From NCBI GenBank assembly GCA_946479615.1, contig CAMLGR010000052.1, forward strand, positions 1-26,932: DNA of 26,932 nt, given 5' to 3'. How positions within the stretch are numbered: position 1 is the stretch's first letter; every line of letters begins with the position of its first letter. The stretch comes from an uncultured Bacteroidota bacterium. Its GTDB lineage: Bacteria > Bacteroidota > Bacteroidia > Chitinophagales > Chitinophagaceae. The notes beneath the pieces are model-generated. The model worked only from the letters and a program-made list of their open reading frames with translations. It had not been told where the DNA came from and made no database searches. The translations under genes and the position numbers were made by a program. This document shows positions 22,159 through 25,561 of the stretch, piece after piece.

Positions 22159-22716
22159 CTATTTCTTTACCTCATACTGCAATACAAATGCTCCCGATTC
22201 AAAGTGCCGGGTGGCTATTAATTCAAGGTTAAGTTTTTGAGGAAGATTCGCTGTCTCAAACAAGCGTTTGCCTTTGCCCGGGAAAAGAGGCTGCATGCAA
22301 AAACGGAATTCGTCAATTACACCCGTCTCAATTAACGAAGAAAGCAAACCCGGACTGCCCATGATCAGCATGTCCTGGTATGTATCTTTTAACCGGGCTA
22401 TCGCTGCCGGCACTTCTTTTCCAATAATGCTGGCATTCTTCCACCCTGCTTCCTGCAAGGTTGTAGAAACAACGATCTTCGGAATGCGATCGATCAGGTG
22501 AGAAAATTCGAGAATAGAAGGAAGCCCCTCCTCCTGTGCTGCTACACCAGGCCAGTATTCCCTGAATAACAAAAATGTATTTTTCCCGAATACAACGGCA
22601 TCTGCCTGGCGTACAAGTTCATTGGCATATTCATGCAGTTCTTCGTCTGCGATCACAGCAGTATGATCACAAAAACCGTCGGGTGTAATGTTCAGCAAGG
22701 CGATTAATTTTCCCAT
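22159..22716 (-). CDS. Dihydrofolate reductase-family protein (RibD C-terminal-like)
   Basis: 185 residues of the DHFR/RibD-C fold. MGKLIALLNITPDGFCDH opens the first strand. AVVFGKNTFLLFREYWP (about 40-56) is the nucleotide-contact region of this family, and IMGSPGLLSSLIETGVIDEFRFCMQPLFPGKGKRLF (about 117-152) is the typical GS-rich loop and end. Such stand-alone proteins are likely NAD(P)H reductases of unknown substrate and are common as orphans. They are not the folate enzyme. There is no operon partner. A TTTTTACGGTAAAAA palindrome (22748-22762) about 32 bases upstream may be an operator. Family confident, function open. Confidence 0.88.
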   Translation of the reverse strand: MGKLIALLNITPDGFCDHTAVIADEELHEYANELVRQADAVVFGKNTFLLFREYWPGVAAQEEGLPSILEFSHLIDRIPKIVVSTTLQEAGWKNASIIGKEVPAAIARLKDTYQDMLIMGSPGLLSSLIETGVIDEFRFCMQPLFPGKGKRLFETANLPQKLNLELIATRHFESGAFVLQYEVKK

Positions 22717-22747
22717 GGTCGTTTTATTCTAAAATTACTATTTGTGG

Positions 22748-22762
22748 TTTTTACGGTAAAAA
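22748..22762. promoter_or_regulatory. Small palindrome upstream of the reductase gene
   Basis: TTTTTAC-G-GTAAAAA is a perfect 7+7 palindrome. On the - strand it sits about 20 bases upstream of TAATTTTA (22737-22730), one base off a -7 box, so it may overlap the -33 element of the reductase promoter. A similar sequence occurs at 22931-22950. Confidence 0.3.
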
Positions 22763-22811
22763 TTCATCAAAAACAGGGCAGTTTTACGCTAGGCCAGTAT
22801 TGGAGATGCCT

Positions 22812-22819
22812 TATGTTTG
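22812..22819 (+). promoter_or_regulatory. -7 box of the candidate small RNA
   Basis: TATGTTTG is an exact TAnnTTTG match ending four bases before the first base of the 17-base closing stem at 22823. That places the transcription start at about 22823. No gene starts nearby on this strand, and a clean -33 TTTG is lacking. Confidence 0.55.
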
Positions 22820-22822
22820 CAT

Positions 22823-22935
22823 CAGAAGTTGATTGATATACATTTTATCAATCCAATCCAATATCGTACCGAAGAACCCTGTCCAAACATCCTAAAAACC
22901 AATAAAATCCAATATCAGTCAGCTTCTGTTTTTTT
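22823..22935 (+). ncRNA. Candidate ~113-nt structured small RNA, 6S-like
   Basis: Bases 22823-22839 and 22912-22928 form a 17-base closing stem. It pairs fully in + strand RNA with two G-U pairs, which would be mismatches on the - strand, so the + strand is the transcribed one. A second stem, ATTTTAT (22842-22848) with ATAAAAT (22902-22908), stacks inside small bulges. A 53-base loop rich in CCAA and lacking strong pairing follows. The closing stem is directly followed by seven T's (22929-22935), so the molecule carries its own terminator, and a perfect -7 box ends four bases before the stem. No reading frame covers it. Size, rod shape with large internal loop, and self-contained promoter and terminator resemble the 6S-type RNA reported in Bacteroidota (6S-Flavo); the match is by form, not by an alignment. 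Confidence 0.65.
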
Positions 22936-22955
22936 ACCGTCCAGTAAAAAGAATT

Positions 22956-22988
22956 AAAAAAGGTCGTTGCCACGCAGCGGCCTTTTTT
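22956..22988 (+). terminator. Intrinsic terminator downstream of the small RNA
   Basis: The arms 22956-22969 and 22975-22988 pair at all 14 positions in + strand RNA (two G-U), with a 5-base loop and six T's at the end of the right arm. It follows the small RNA by 21 bases and could act as a back-up stop or insulate the lipoprotein promoter. Confidence 0.8.
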
Positions 22989-22990
22989 AT

Positions 22991-23022
22991 TTTGACTGCT
23001 CAAATATCTAGGTCTATGTTGT
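22991..23022 (+). promoter_or_regulatory. Possible promoter of the lipoprotein gene
   Basis: TTTG at 22991-22994 and TATGTTGT at 23015-23022 are 20 bases apart. The first six bases of the -7 box fit TAnnTT, but the end does not. Start of transcription would be near 23026, leaving about 28 bases before ATG 23054. Confidence 0.35.
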
Positions 23023-23053
23023 AAATTGGTTGTTAATACCAATGAATACTGTT

Positions 23054-23596
23054 ATGAAAAGGTACATACAACCACTGCTCCCCACCCTTTTACTCATATT
23101 CTCTGTTTCCTGCAATACTCCTCCTGAAAAATATTTTGATGTAGCCATATTGAATTGCAATACGATCGCAGGTTTTGGTGAAAGCCTCGACCGGTCGCTG
23201 GAATATCCTTCGGTTAGGTTGGTGCCGGGTACAAAAGATCAGACAGAACCGATGAAAAGAGCAGAAGTGATGAATGACCAGATTCATTATGTAGAAAAAA
23301 ACCTGTCAGACATTAATGACCTCAAAAAAACAGATGATACAAAAGATATCTTAGAATCATCGATCGCACTGCATGAATTTATCTTACCGGTTTATAAAAA
23401 TGAATATACACAACTGGCCAAATTATATGATGATAATGCCAGCAAAGAACAAATAGAAGCACAGAAACAGGATATCTTTACTAAATATGCCATCGAATTC
23501 GGCAAACGGTATGATGCCGTTACCAAAGCGGGTAAAGCCTATGCAACCAAACATGGGATCAAGGTGAACTGGGATATTCATACTTCCCCGCAATAA
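23054..23596 (+). CDS. Small lipoprotein, unknown function
   Basis: 180 residues from ATG 23054 (MKRYIQPLLP), the start that puts Lys-Arg directly before the hydrophobic core. ATG 23042 and TTG 23030 are in frame but add residues with no value to the signal. The lipobox is FSVSC, with cysteine at residue 20, so it is likely a lipoprotein of the envelope. The rest is mostly helical and charged (MKRAEVMNDQIHYVEKNLSDINDLKKTDD and ASKEQIEAQKQDIFTKYAIEFGKRYDAV), and may be a helical bundle. I do not recognise the family. There is no operon partner, and it follows the small RNA and its terminator. Confidence 0.8.
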   Translation: MKRYIQPLLPTLLLIFSVSCNTPPEKYFDVAILNCNTIAGFGESLDRSLEYPSVRLVPGTKDQTEPMKRAEVMNDQIHYVEKNLSDINDLKKTDDTKDILESSIALHEFILPVYKNEYTQLAKLYDDNASKEQIEAQKQDIFTKYAIEFGKRYDAVTKAGKAYATKHGIKVNWDIHTSPQ

Positions 23597-23981: not shown

Positions 23982-24689
23982 ATGCCTAAGATCATTGAAT
24001 CCGGCAATGGAATGCTTTTGCCCGATGCGGAAAGTCAAAAGGCTATATCAAGAAGAAAGTTTCTTGGTTATGGTACTGCTGCGACCGCATTGGCTATTGG
24101 TATTGCCGCCTGCCACAAAAACGACGACGATAATGACAACAACAATGGTATTAATCTCGGAAGTGGTGATACCGGTATCCTGAATTATGCTTACGCACTT
24201 GAACAACTGGAAGCAGCATTTTACATACAGGTAATCACTTCCCCGTATTCAGGTATCACACAGACAGAAACCGCATTGCTGACTGATATCAGGGACCATG
24301 AAGTAGCGCACCGCGAATTTTTCAAAGCAGCATTGGCAGGTAATGCTATCCAGGCGCTGACACCGAATTTCAGCGCGATCAATTTTTCAAGCCGCGACAG
24401 CGTACTCGGTGCTGCTAAAACATTTGAAGATCTTGGTGTATCCGCTTACAATGGAGCAGGCAAACTTATTGTTAACCCTGCTTATCTCACACTCGCCGGC
24501 AAGATCGTATCGGTAGAAGCAAGACATGCCGCCCTGATACGCGACCTGATCAGTAATGGAACGTTTGCAGATAGTACTGTTGTCAATTCAATGGGACTGG
24601 ATCAAAGCAATGCACCCGGTACTGTTATAACAGCAGCTAATGAATTCCTTACTACAAAAATTACCGGAAAAAATTTACCCACTTCTTAA
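23982..24689 (+). CDS. Tat-exported ferritin-like lipoprotein (first of pair)
   Basis: 235 residues. The twin-arginine signal SRRKFLG (23-29) leads into a hydrophobic stretch ending in a lipobox (IAAC, C44), followed by an Asp/Asn-rich linker (47-55). The ferritin-like four-helix domain (about 62-200) keeps the expected metal ligands in order: E77 (LEAAFY), E107 and H110 (DHEVAH), E149 (FEDLG), E179 and H182 (VEARH). This is the Ferritin_2-type domain found in exported bacterial proteins whose role is poorly known; iron binding or oxidation is likely from the ligands. Tat export agrees with folding around metal in the cytoplasm. The next gene starts 11 bases after its stop and encodes a second copy of the domain, so the two probably act together. 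Confidence 0.88.
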   Translation: MPKIIESGNGMLLPDAESQKAISRRKFLGYGTAATALAIGIAACHKNDDDNDNNNGINLGSGDTGILNYAYALEQLEAAFYIQVITSPYSGITQTETALLTDIRDHEVAHREFFKAALAGNAIQALTPNFSAINFSSRDSVLGAAKTFEDLGVSAYNGAGKLIVNPAYLTLAGKIVSVEARHAALIRDLISNGTFADSTVVNSMGLDQSNAPGTVITAANEFLTTKITGKNLPTS

Positions 24690-24700
24690 AACTGGTATTT

Positions 24701-25561
24701 ATGAATGTCAAACATATTTTCAACGAAATAGAAAAAACAGACCCGGAAATATATCAGCGCCTGGATACACGACGCAATACCATGAAAGAATTCGCCGGTA
24801 TCGCTGGTAAATTAGCCCTGGCAGCAGTTCCTATTGCACTTGGCGGCATGTTTAAAAAAGCATACGGTCAAACTTCTTCTACGCTTGTAGGTATTCTTAA
24901 TTATGCACTAACCCTGGAATACCTGGAAGCAAAATTCTATGCTACGGGAAATGCGAGCGCCAATCTTATTCCTGCCGGCGCACCCGCTTCCGCCCTTCAG
25001 AATATTGGCGCCCATGAAACCGCTCACGTCGCTTTTTTAAAATCTGCGATCATGAGCGCCGGTGGAACACCTGTCCCCGAACCTGCTTTCGATTTTACAG
25101 CCGGCAACGGTTCCGGCGCCGGCCCTTTTACAGGCGTATTCAGTAATTATGCATTGTTCCTTGCCGTTGCTCAAACGTTTGAAGATACCGGCGTAAGAGC
25201 TTATAAAGGACAAGCCGCCGAGCCTGCACTGATGGCGAATAATGATGTACTGACTGCTGCACTACAGATCCATTCTGTGGAAGCAAGACATGCATCACAT
25301 ATCCGCCAGATGCGCCGCGCAAATGGAGGGCTTGTTCCTGCCGGTGTGACAGTAAAACCCTGGATCACGCTGAACCAAAGCGGCATCATGTCCAGCGATG
25401 TACAGGCTAGTTATAATGGAGAAGAAGTGACCAGCCAGGCCAATGTACCGATAGTAAATATTGGCGGACAAACGATATCGGCCAGTGCGGCCTCAGAAGC
25501 TTTTGATGAACCACTGACCATGACACAGGTACTTGCAATCGTCGATCCGTTTATTGCATAG
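24701..25561 (+). CDS. Exported ferritin-like protein (second of pair)
   Basis: 286 residues. The N-terminus is long and charged (1-28) before a hydrophobic segment (about 31-50) ending in KKAYGQ, so it is a late signal or anchor without a clear twin-arginine lipobox. The ferritin-like domain (about 60-200) has E76 (LEAKFY), H105/E106/H109 (AHETAH), E151 (FEDTG), E184 and H187 (VEARH), the same ligand set as the first gene. A C-terminal extension of about 80 residues (from GVTVKPWITLNQSG) is absent from the partner; it has Asn/Ser-rich stretches and ends in LTMTQVLAIVDPFIA. It is co-transcribed with the first gene (11-base gap). Metal binding is likely; the reaction is unknown. Confidence 0.87.
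   Translation: MNVKHIFNEIEKTDPEIYQRLDTRRNTMKEFAGIAGKLALAAVPIALGGMFKKAYGQTSSTLVGILNYALTLEYLEAKFYATGNASANLIPAGAPASALQNIGAHETAHVAFLKSAIMSAGGTPVPEPAFDFTAGNGSGAGPFTGVFSNYALFLAVAQTFEDTGVRAYKGQAAEPALMANNDVLTAALQIHSVEARHASHIRQMRRANGGLVPAGVTVKPWITLNQSGIMSSDVQASYNGEEVTSQANVPIVNIGGQTISASAASEAFDEPLTMTQVLAIVDPFIA

Follow-up and report, generated by a model that had tools for sequence, protein, structure and literature searches.

Evidence for a multi-copy family of structured RNA genes in Chitinophagaceae with a conserved closing stem and an A/C-rich loop of UCCAA repeats

Introduction

An intergenic segment of the 26,932-nt stretch of DNA analysed here (the window) combines a promoter box, a long stem and a run of T's, and a sequence-only reading had proposed that it encodes a self-contained 113-nt structured RNA, possibly of the 6S type but potentially a new family. 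Which kind of RNA gene is present at this locus, where its transcript ends and how it could act are the questions addressed here. To our knowledge, small-RNA control in Bacteroidota has been little studied beyond gut and fish-pathogen models, and a multi-copy family would offer direct handles on a UCCAA-binding protein and on a palindrome-binding regulator.

Results

The RNA locus and its neighbouring genes

A Chitinophagaceae-like bacterium is the source of the window, whose ferritin-like gene (24701–25561) aligned at 80% identity with a gene of Terrimonas ginsenosidimutans. The features of the locus, with the evidence on which each was placed, are the following:

22159–22716, minus strand: RibD_C-domain gene, upstream flank of the RNA feature
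22776–22791, plus strand: degenerate form of the operator-like palindrome and −33 element seen in the family (130-region profile against the window row)
22812–22819, plus strand: −7 promoter box TATGTTTG (TAnnTTTG; from the sequence, A and TTT being invariant in 130 aligned copies)
22823–22839, plus strand: 5' arm of the closing stem (sequence, fold, family alignment)
22824–22992, plus strand: predicted transcript of about 169 nt (start placed by taking the box as −12 to −5, end placed by the terminator)
22831–22853, plus strand: alternative local hairpin GATTGATA-N7-TATCAATC, competing for the 5' arm (predicted nascent fold, family test)
22840–22911, plus strand: A/C-rich single-stranded region with repeated UCCAA/UCC (motif counts)
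22912–22928, plus strand: 3' arm of the closing stem (sequence, fold, family alignment)
22929–22952, plus strand: run of seven T's with predicted pairing to the following A's around CGTCCA (fold of 22823–22992)
22955–22992, plus strand: intrinsic terminator with a 16-pair stem, a 3-nt loop and a T run (terminator search, fold)
From 23030 or 23054, plus strand: ORF without Pfam match, downstream flank of the RNA feature

Both neighbouring genes are clear of the RNA, as had been claimed; small ORFs do overlap it, for example one of 46 aa at 22817–22957 from a TTG start. A protein-coding reading was rejected, since loop lengths among the relatives are evenly split over the three modulo-3 classes (44/49/39), which argues against coding. 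The protein encoded at 23054–23596, used as bait, retrieved no locus, and the RNA together with the two flanking genes was not seen by blastn and tblastn in the 80 loci obtained from the ferritin alignment. Further downstream, two adjacent Ferritin_2-domain genes lie on the plus strand (23982–24689 and 24701–25561), possibly an old duplication.

Distribution of the RNA in Chitinophagaceae

When the window segment was compared by blastn with 10 genomes, clear matches were obtained in 7, T. ginsenosidimutans among them (E 5e-28 to 5e-4), and weak ones only in 3, the best matches beginning at the promoter box and reaching the T run. A covariance model (R1) was then built from 15 copies and applied with a cut-off of E<=0.01. 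At least 110 of 294 Chitinophagaceae genomes were positive, and at least 92 of these had two or more matches, both figures being lower bounds given the 10–20 candidates scored per genome and the strict filters. The set corresponds to the family group of G001, reached via the Terrimonas record, with genome completeness not given. One of the 110 genomes (G162) is doubtful, because its only match, L158, failed the arm match, and other matches with weak E values were kept without inspection.

In a sample of the order, 10 of 149 genomes were positive, all already in the 110 and including the doubtful G162; in a sample of the phylum 7 of 296 were positive, namely five credible family members, G162 and G444, whose match, a simple hairpin with just 4 nt in its loop, was discounted. 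Outside the Chitinophagaceae set, no credible match was thus found in the order (149) and phylum (296) samples.

For alignment, a first set of 73 matches was reduced to 70 by removing L107 and L116, which duplicate L145 and L154, and the cut-off L143:1–121, L092:3967 being extended to its real 3' arm, and a second set of 68 was reduced to 67 by removing L175:1355. The resulting 137 rows (136 distinct) gave 134 once L220:1229+ and L158:1501+, for which the arm match failed, were taken out, and 132 copies after L157 and L201:1551+ were removed by eye.

Same-strand tandem arrays occur, with four units 433–460 nt apart in G230 and three units 408–410 nt apart in G251. Among 111 loci, which are not independent genomes and many of which are short, 34 had, on the same strand and within 2.5 kb, a CBS-type gene (PALP plus CBS domain) on the upstream side and a Peripla_BP_2 gene on the downstream side; at least one of these neighbours was present at 56, and no locus had either of them on the opposite strand. 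This recurrent arrangement points to one old chromosomal locus with paralogs elsewhere, the window copy being among the paralogs.

At gathering score no Rfam family matched the window or any of eight relative loci. No title or abstract describing the RNA was found in the literature covered (supplements, preprints and subscription papers being outside its scope), and a search combining Chitinophaga or Chitinophagaceae with sRNA retrieved no paper. The part of PMC8040213 available to us mentions neither Chitinophaga nor Terrimonas, and a word search of the available part of PMC8632094 gave no match. The family therefore appears so far undescribed, with the motifs of PMC8040213 and those PMC2864571 motifs that lack an Rfam entry (GUCCY-hairpin, Bacteroides-2) left uncompared.

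The closing stem is conserved and shows paired changes

The 17-base closing stem is present as described, 22823–22839 pairing with 22912–22928 and G-U pairs being formed at T22829 and T22833. The segment 22823–22935 folds at −22.5 kcal/mol (z −5.97), with none of 200 shuffles as good, and the recurrence of the same layout in relatives indicates more than chance. The 132 copies come from 87 genomes, the window being taken as one of these, and standard pairing is found at 96.7% of the 15 core pairs, against 21–49% paired when the stem partner was slid (134 copies; anchoring by family consensus).

The expected paired changes were observed in the closing stem, the 48 distinct arm pairs of the 132-copy alignment containing 13 two-sided changes spread over 5 positions (at position 14, for instance, U-A is replaced by C-G in 6 genomes), against a mean of 3.7 in column shuffles, none of 1000 of which reached 13; such shuffles ignore relatedness. 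The clear two-sided excess is seen only with 132 copies. No excess was present in the 15-copy alignment (2 against 1.0 shuffled; 122/500) or in the 73-copy alignment (3 against 2.3; 182/500), because the sequence of the arms is itself conserved, and the covariation score was above shuffles in both (22/500 and 1/500, respectively). Two sequences, L242 1337–1480 and L220:1229–1371, carry the variant arms AGAAAGTTGATTG / CAATCAACTTTCT, with a small hairpin standing separately past the 5' arm, and are probably a sub-family.

Taken with the promoter box, the stem with paired changes, the presence in at least 110 of 294 genomes and the lack of an Rfam match at gathering score bear out the suggestion of a new family, and the existence of an RNA family is, in our opinion, almost certain.

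The promoter and an operator-like palindrome

The TAnnTTTG box was found where it had been reported. A Flavobacterium sigma-A box is placed at −12 to −5 in the accessible text of PMC9723704, and the same spacing puts the predicted start near 22824, at the base of the stem. In 130 upstream regions the profile is AAAAT-N-GAGCAATT-N-TGCTCTTG, followed after about 20 nt by TAttTTTG; a weak ACCG element stands about 55 nt ahead of TTTG. At the −33 place, CTTG occurs in 85 of 130 regions and CTCTTG in 71 (within the slice used).

The palindromic part of the profile, GAGCA-N4-TGCTCTTG, is kept in its strict form by only 37 of the 130 copies. In the window, 22776–22791 reads GGGCA...CGCTA and the upstream promoter half is poor (ACGCTAGG against TGCTCTTG in the 130-copy profile); given this degenerate operator, the window copy may be weaker or under different control.

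In 12 chosen genomes, the exact operator pattern GNGCANNNNTGCYCTTG gave 15 matches (reversed control, 1), with at least one in 8 genomes and none in 4. Eight of the 15 precede model-matched copies (four in G230, two in G179, one each in G013 and G297), one precedes an arm-less G179 unit with UCC/AAAACC text, and six lie elsewhere, with no model match. The arm-less unit (L235 ~1300–1500; G179:C4, upstream of 394143, minus strand) has the exact operator and a TACTTTTA box, followed by UCC/AAAACC-rich text without stem arms, which suggests that promoter and loop text can occur where the closing stem is absent.

The 3' end and the length of the transcript

The seven T's that had been taken for the terminator are present at 22929–22935, but they are probably not the main one, being predicted to pair with the A's that follow (22929–22937 with 22944–22952) and being followed by the 16-pair hairpin of the intrinsic terminator (hairpin proper, 22955–22989). 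Thus, while the structured RNA gene itself looks real, its 3' end was probably misread, and the window transcript is probably about 169 nt rather than 113 nt. Sub-threshold Rfam matches at 22922–22995 were taken as chance matches to this terminator.

Among relatives, the first 100 nt past the modelled unit hold the start of a canonical terminator in 21 of 132 copies, compared with 6 of 336 control windows, and the first 350 nt do so in 55 of 132 compared with 35 of 336; none was found in 72 of the 132 copies within the stretch read. In many relatives UCC-rich sequence runs on past the stem, so that the units are longer there.

The loop carries repeated UCCAA and UCC words

The region between the arms measures 65–312 nt (median 86; 132 copies) and is rich in A (0.44) and C (0.245), with T at 0.21 and G at 0.106. 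TCCAA was counted 356 times where 29.5 were expected (sd 5.1), TCC 715 times against 148, and GAAAAACC-like motifs 145 times against 15.6, the expectations coming from mononucleotide shuffles and the copies being related. The number of TCC grows with loop length (r 0.73). The longest of the 132 loops (312 nt between the arms, with dense TCC) belongs to the T. ginsenosidimutans copy L092 3967–4332 (G001:C23) and suggests a repeat expansion in that copy.

A predicted local hairpin as an alternative pairing of the 5' arm

In 102 of 133 copies (77%), at least 7 bases at the end of the 5' arm can pair with a stretch close by, against 15% in shuffles, and the local hairpin appeared in the predicted nascent folds of 106 of 132 copies. 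With the local partner, 15 copies from 6 genomes form G-C or C-G at the last position of the arm (3.3 expected; 0/2000), and no G-C or C-G is found with the distal partner; only 59 of 88 examined local-hairpin pairs are standard at this position. The minority of copies with a different arm end has another hairpin at the same place. Once the whole arm-to-arm segment is present, it is predicted to fold into the long stem in 129 of 132 copies, and the bare long stem was evaluated at −19.7 kcal/mol, the alternative fold at −10.9 kcal/mol.

Candidate protein partners

Partner proteins were sought in the same 98 genomes, 36 RNA-positive and 62 RNA-negative. CsrA was found in none of the 98 family genomes, with control matches in 3 of 14 known genomes, and Hfq in none over the cut-off, with weak matches in 2; a dependence on Hfq was set aside on this result. 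RRM_1 proteins are present in 91 of the 98; at least two occur in 36 of 36 RNA-positive genomes against 39 of 62 RNA-negative ones. The association persists when genome size is included in a linear model (t 3.8), relatedness and completeness being uncorrected, and RRM proteins occur in most RNA-negative genomes too.

Discussion

The family, its promoter box, stem, repeats, distribution and conserved locus can be read directly from the genomes. The copies have the own promoter and conserved structure of an independently transcribed sRNA family, the transcript being predicted.

Transcription, folding order and action are what we infer from these sequences. Each unit would carry its own sigma-A-type promoter, with transcription starting around 22824, at the base of the closing stem, and ending at a separate terminator (about 22990 in the window). 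During synthesis the 5' arm would enter a short local hairpin; as the 3' arm emerges, the stem of 15–17 pairs would close and display the A/C-rich strand with its UCCAA/UCC and GAAAAACC-like motifs. The repeats would offer multivalent sites to a sequence-specific RNA-binding protein, perhaps of the RRM type, and the RNA would titrate this putative partner, in the way in which CsrB titrates CsrA. Copies with the common palindromic promoter would answer to one regulator. Protein titration by sibling sRNAs is, on our analysis, the likeliest mechanism, although we hold it at somewhat less than an even chance. The complete picture, a new protein-titrating RNA class in which co-controlled siblings present UCCAA arrays to an RRM-type protein, play a CsrB/CsrA-like role in a lineage in which searches gave neither CsrA nor Hfq, and exchange the local hairpin for the closing stem during transcription, is more speculative, and as a whole we regard it as rather unlikely.

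The main rival to titration is an antisense action of FopS-like sibling sRNAs, in which the loop repeats or a stem arm would pair with mRNAs and repress or protect them. The multi-copy sRNAs of the phylum with a known action are of the antisense type, FopS being the case described in the consulted part of PMC11697453, and the long single-stranded loop and conserved arms would suit such pairing. Against it, complements of the loop words were not enriched at 888 start regions taken from crude gene models (TTGGA, 22 against 29.4 shuffled), and many repeats per molecule suit a decoy better than a single seed. The 5'-arm word TGATTGA was slightly more frequent at the 888 start regions (8 against 4.1), so that the 3' arm may pair there. 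Weighing both sides, we consider an antisense action unlikely, yet worth keeping in view.

Rho prefers C-rich, G-poor RNA, and the loop composition would also fit a decoy for Rho, a similar helicase or a general transcription factor; this reading is improbable, since specific words (ATCCAA, GAAAAACC) are kept beyond composition.

A cis-acting leader or attenuator of the next gene would agree with the Peripla_BP_2 gene downstream on the same strand at the commonest locus and with the two mutually exclusive predicted folds. We find it very improbable: 55 of 111 loci (an upper figure, because many loci are short) have neither a Peripla_BP_2 nor a CBS-type neighbour, the neighbours differ, tandem units have their own promoters and, where seen, terminators, and in the window a terminator stands between the RNA and the next gene.

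A MITE-like mobile inverted-repeat DNA with no RNA function would explain the multiple copies, terminal inverted repeats and tandem arrays, but it is hardly credible in view of the conserved promoter, locus and loop words, the two-sided stem changes, the G-U pairs on one strand and the lack, by eye, of a target-site duplication at the window copy.

The 6S assignment was not supported. Paired ends, a rod-like drawing and an own promoter could indeed belong to a 6S RNA analogue that binds RNA polymerase; an Rfam search of 22700–23050 at E<=10, however, returned 18 matches, none of them 6S. The proposed inner stem (22842–22848/22902–22908) is not conserved, with 43.8% of cells paired against 20.6–43.8% in slid controls (15 copies), and the interior varies from 65 to 312 nt in a mostly multi-copy RNA. 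The 6S-Flavo model (RF01685) does give matches in the phylum, in 11 of 99 genomes at E<=0.001 and over the cut-off in 2, and matched none of the 98 Chitinophagaceae genomes, with silent controls. Chitinophagaceae's own 6S RNA is thus unaccounted for, which speaks for a 6S analogue; even so, we judge one extremely unlikely.

Comparison with known systems

6S-Flavo RNA resembles the RNA described here in the size of its 5' domain and in its paired ends. It differs from it in that our RNA has no match to the model and no conserved inner stem, and has a variable interior and multiple copies.

In Y RNAs the ends are paired into a sequence-conserved stem, followed by a U-rich stretch and enclosing a variable loop; they have paralogs, and their partner is the TROVE protein Ro60. 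All these structural traits and the paralogs recur here. Membership was nevertheless rejected, TROVE proteins being found in 9 of the 98 genomes but in only 1 of 36 RNA-positive ones, against 8 of 62 RNA-negative ones. The Ro60-like carriers are G015, G035, G064, G067, G071, G074, G077, G086 and G097.

FopS sRNAs of Bacteroides are paralogous and multi-copy, have sigma-ABfr-type promoters and are bound by the RRM protein RbpB; in the consulted part of PMC11697453 they are given as about 65–70 nt long, composed of a single-stranded 5' stretch and a terminator, present in Bacteroidaceae and deposited in Rfam by the authors. The phylum, the multi-copy paralogs, the type of promoter and a single-stranded functional part are shared with our RNA, which differs in its long closing stem, its repeated motifs and the lack of an Rfam match at gathering score. 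On architecture and on that lack of a match, the RNA was set apart from FopS and GibS, which share a seed named R1.

CsrB and RsmZ expose many copies of one short motif, GGA, and occur as several siblings. The repetition of one short motif within one RNA and the sibling RNAs are the likeness; the motif is UCCAA/UCC here, the partner is only putative, and CsrB membership was rejected given that CsrA was found in 0 of 98 family genomes. If the RNA is a protein sponge, it would apply a CsrB-like logic to a different protein.
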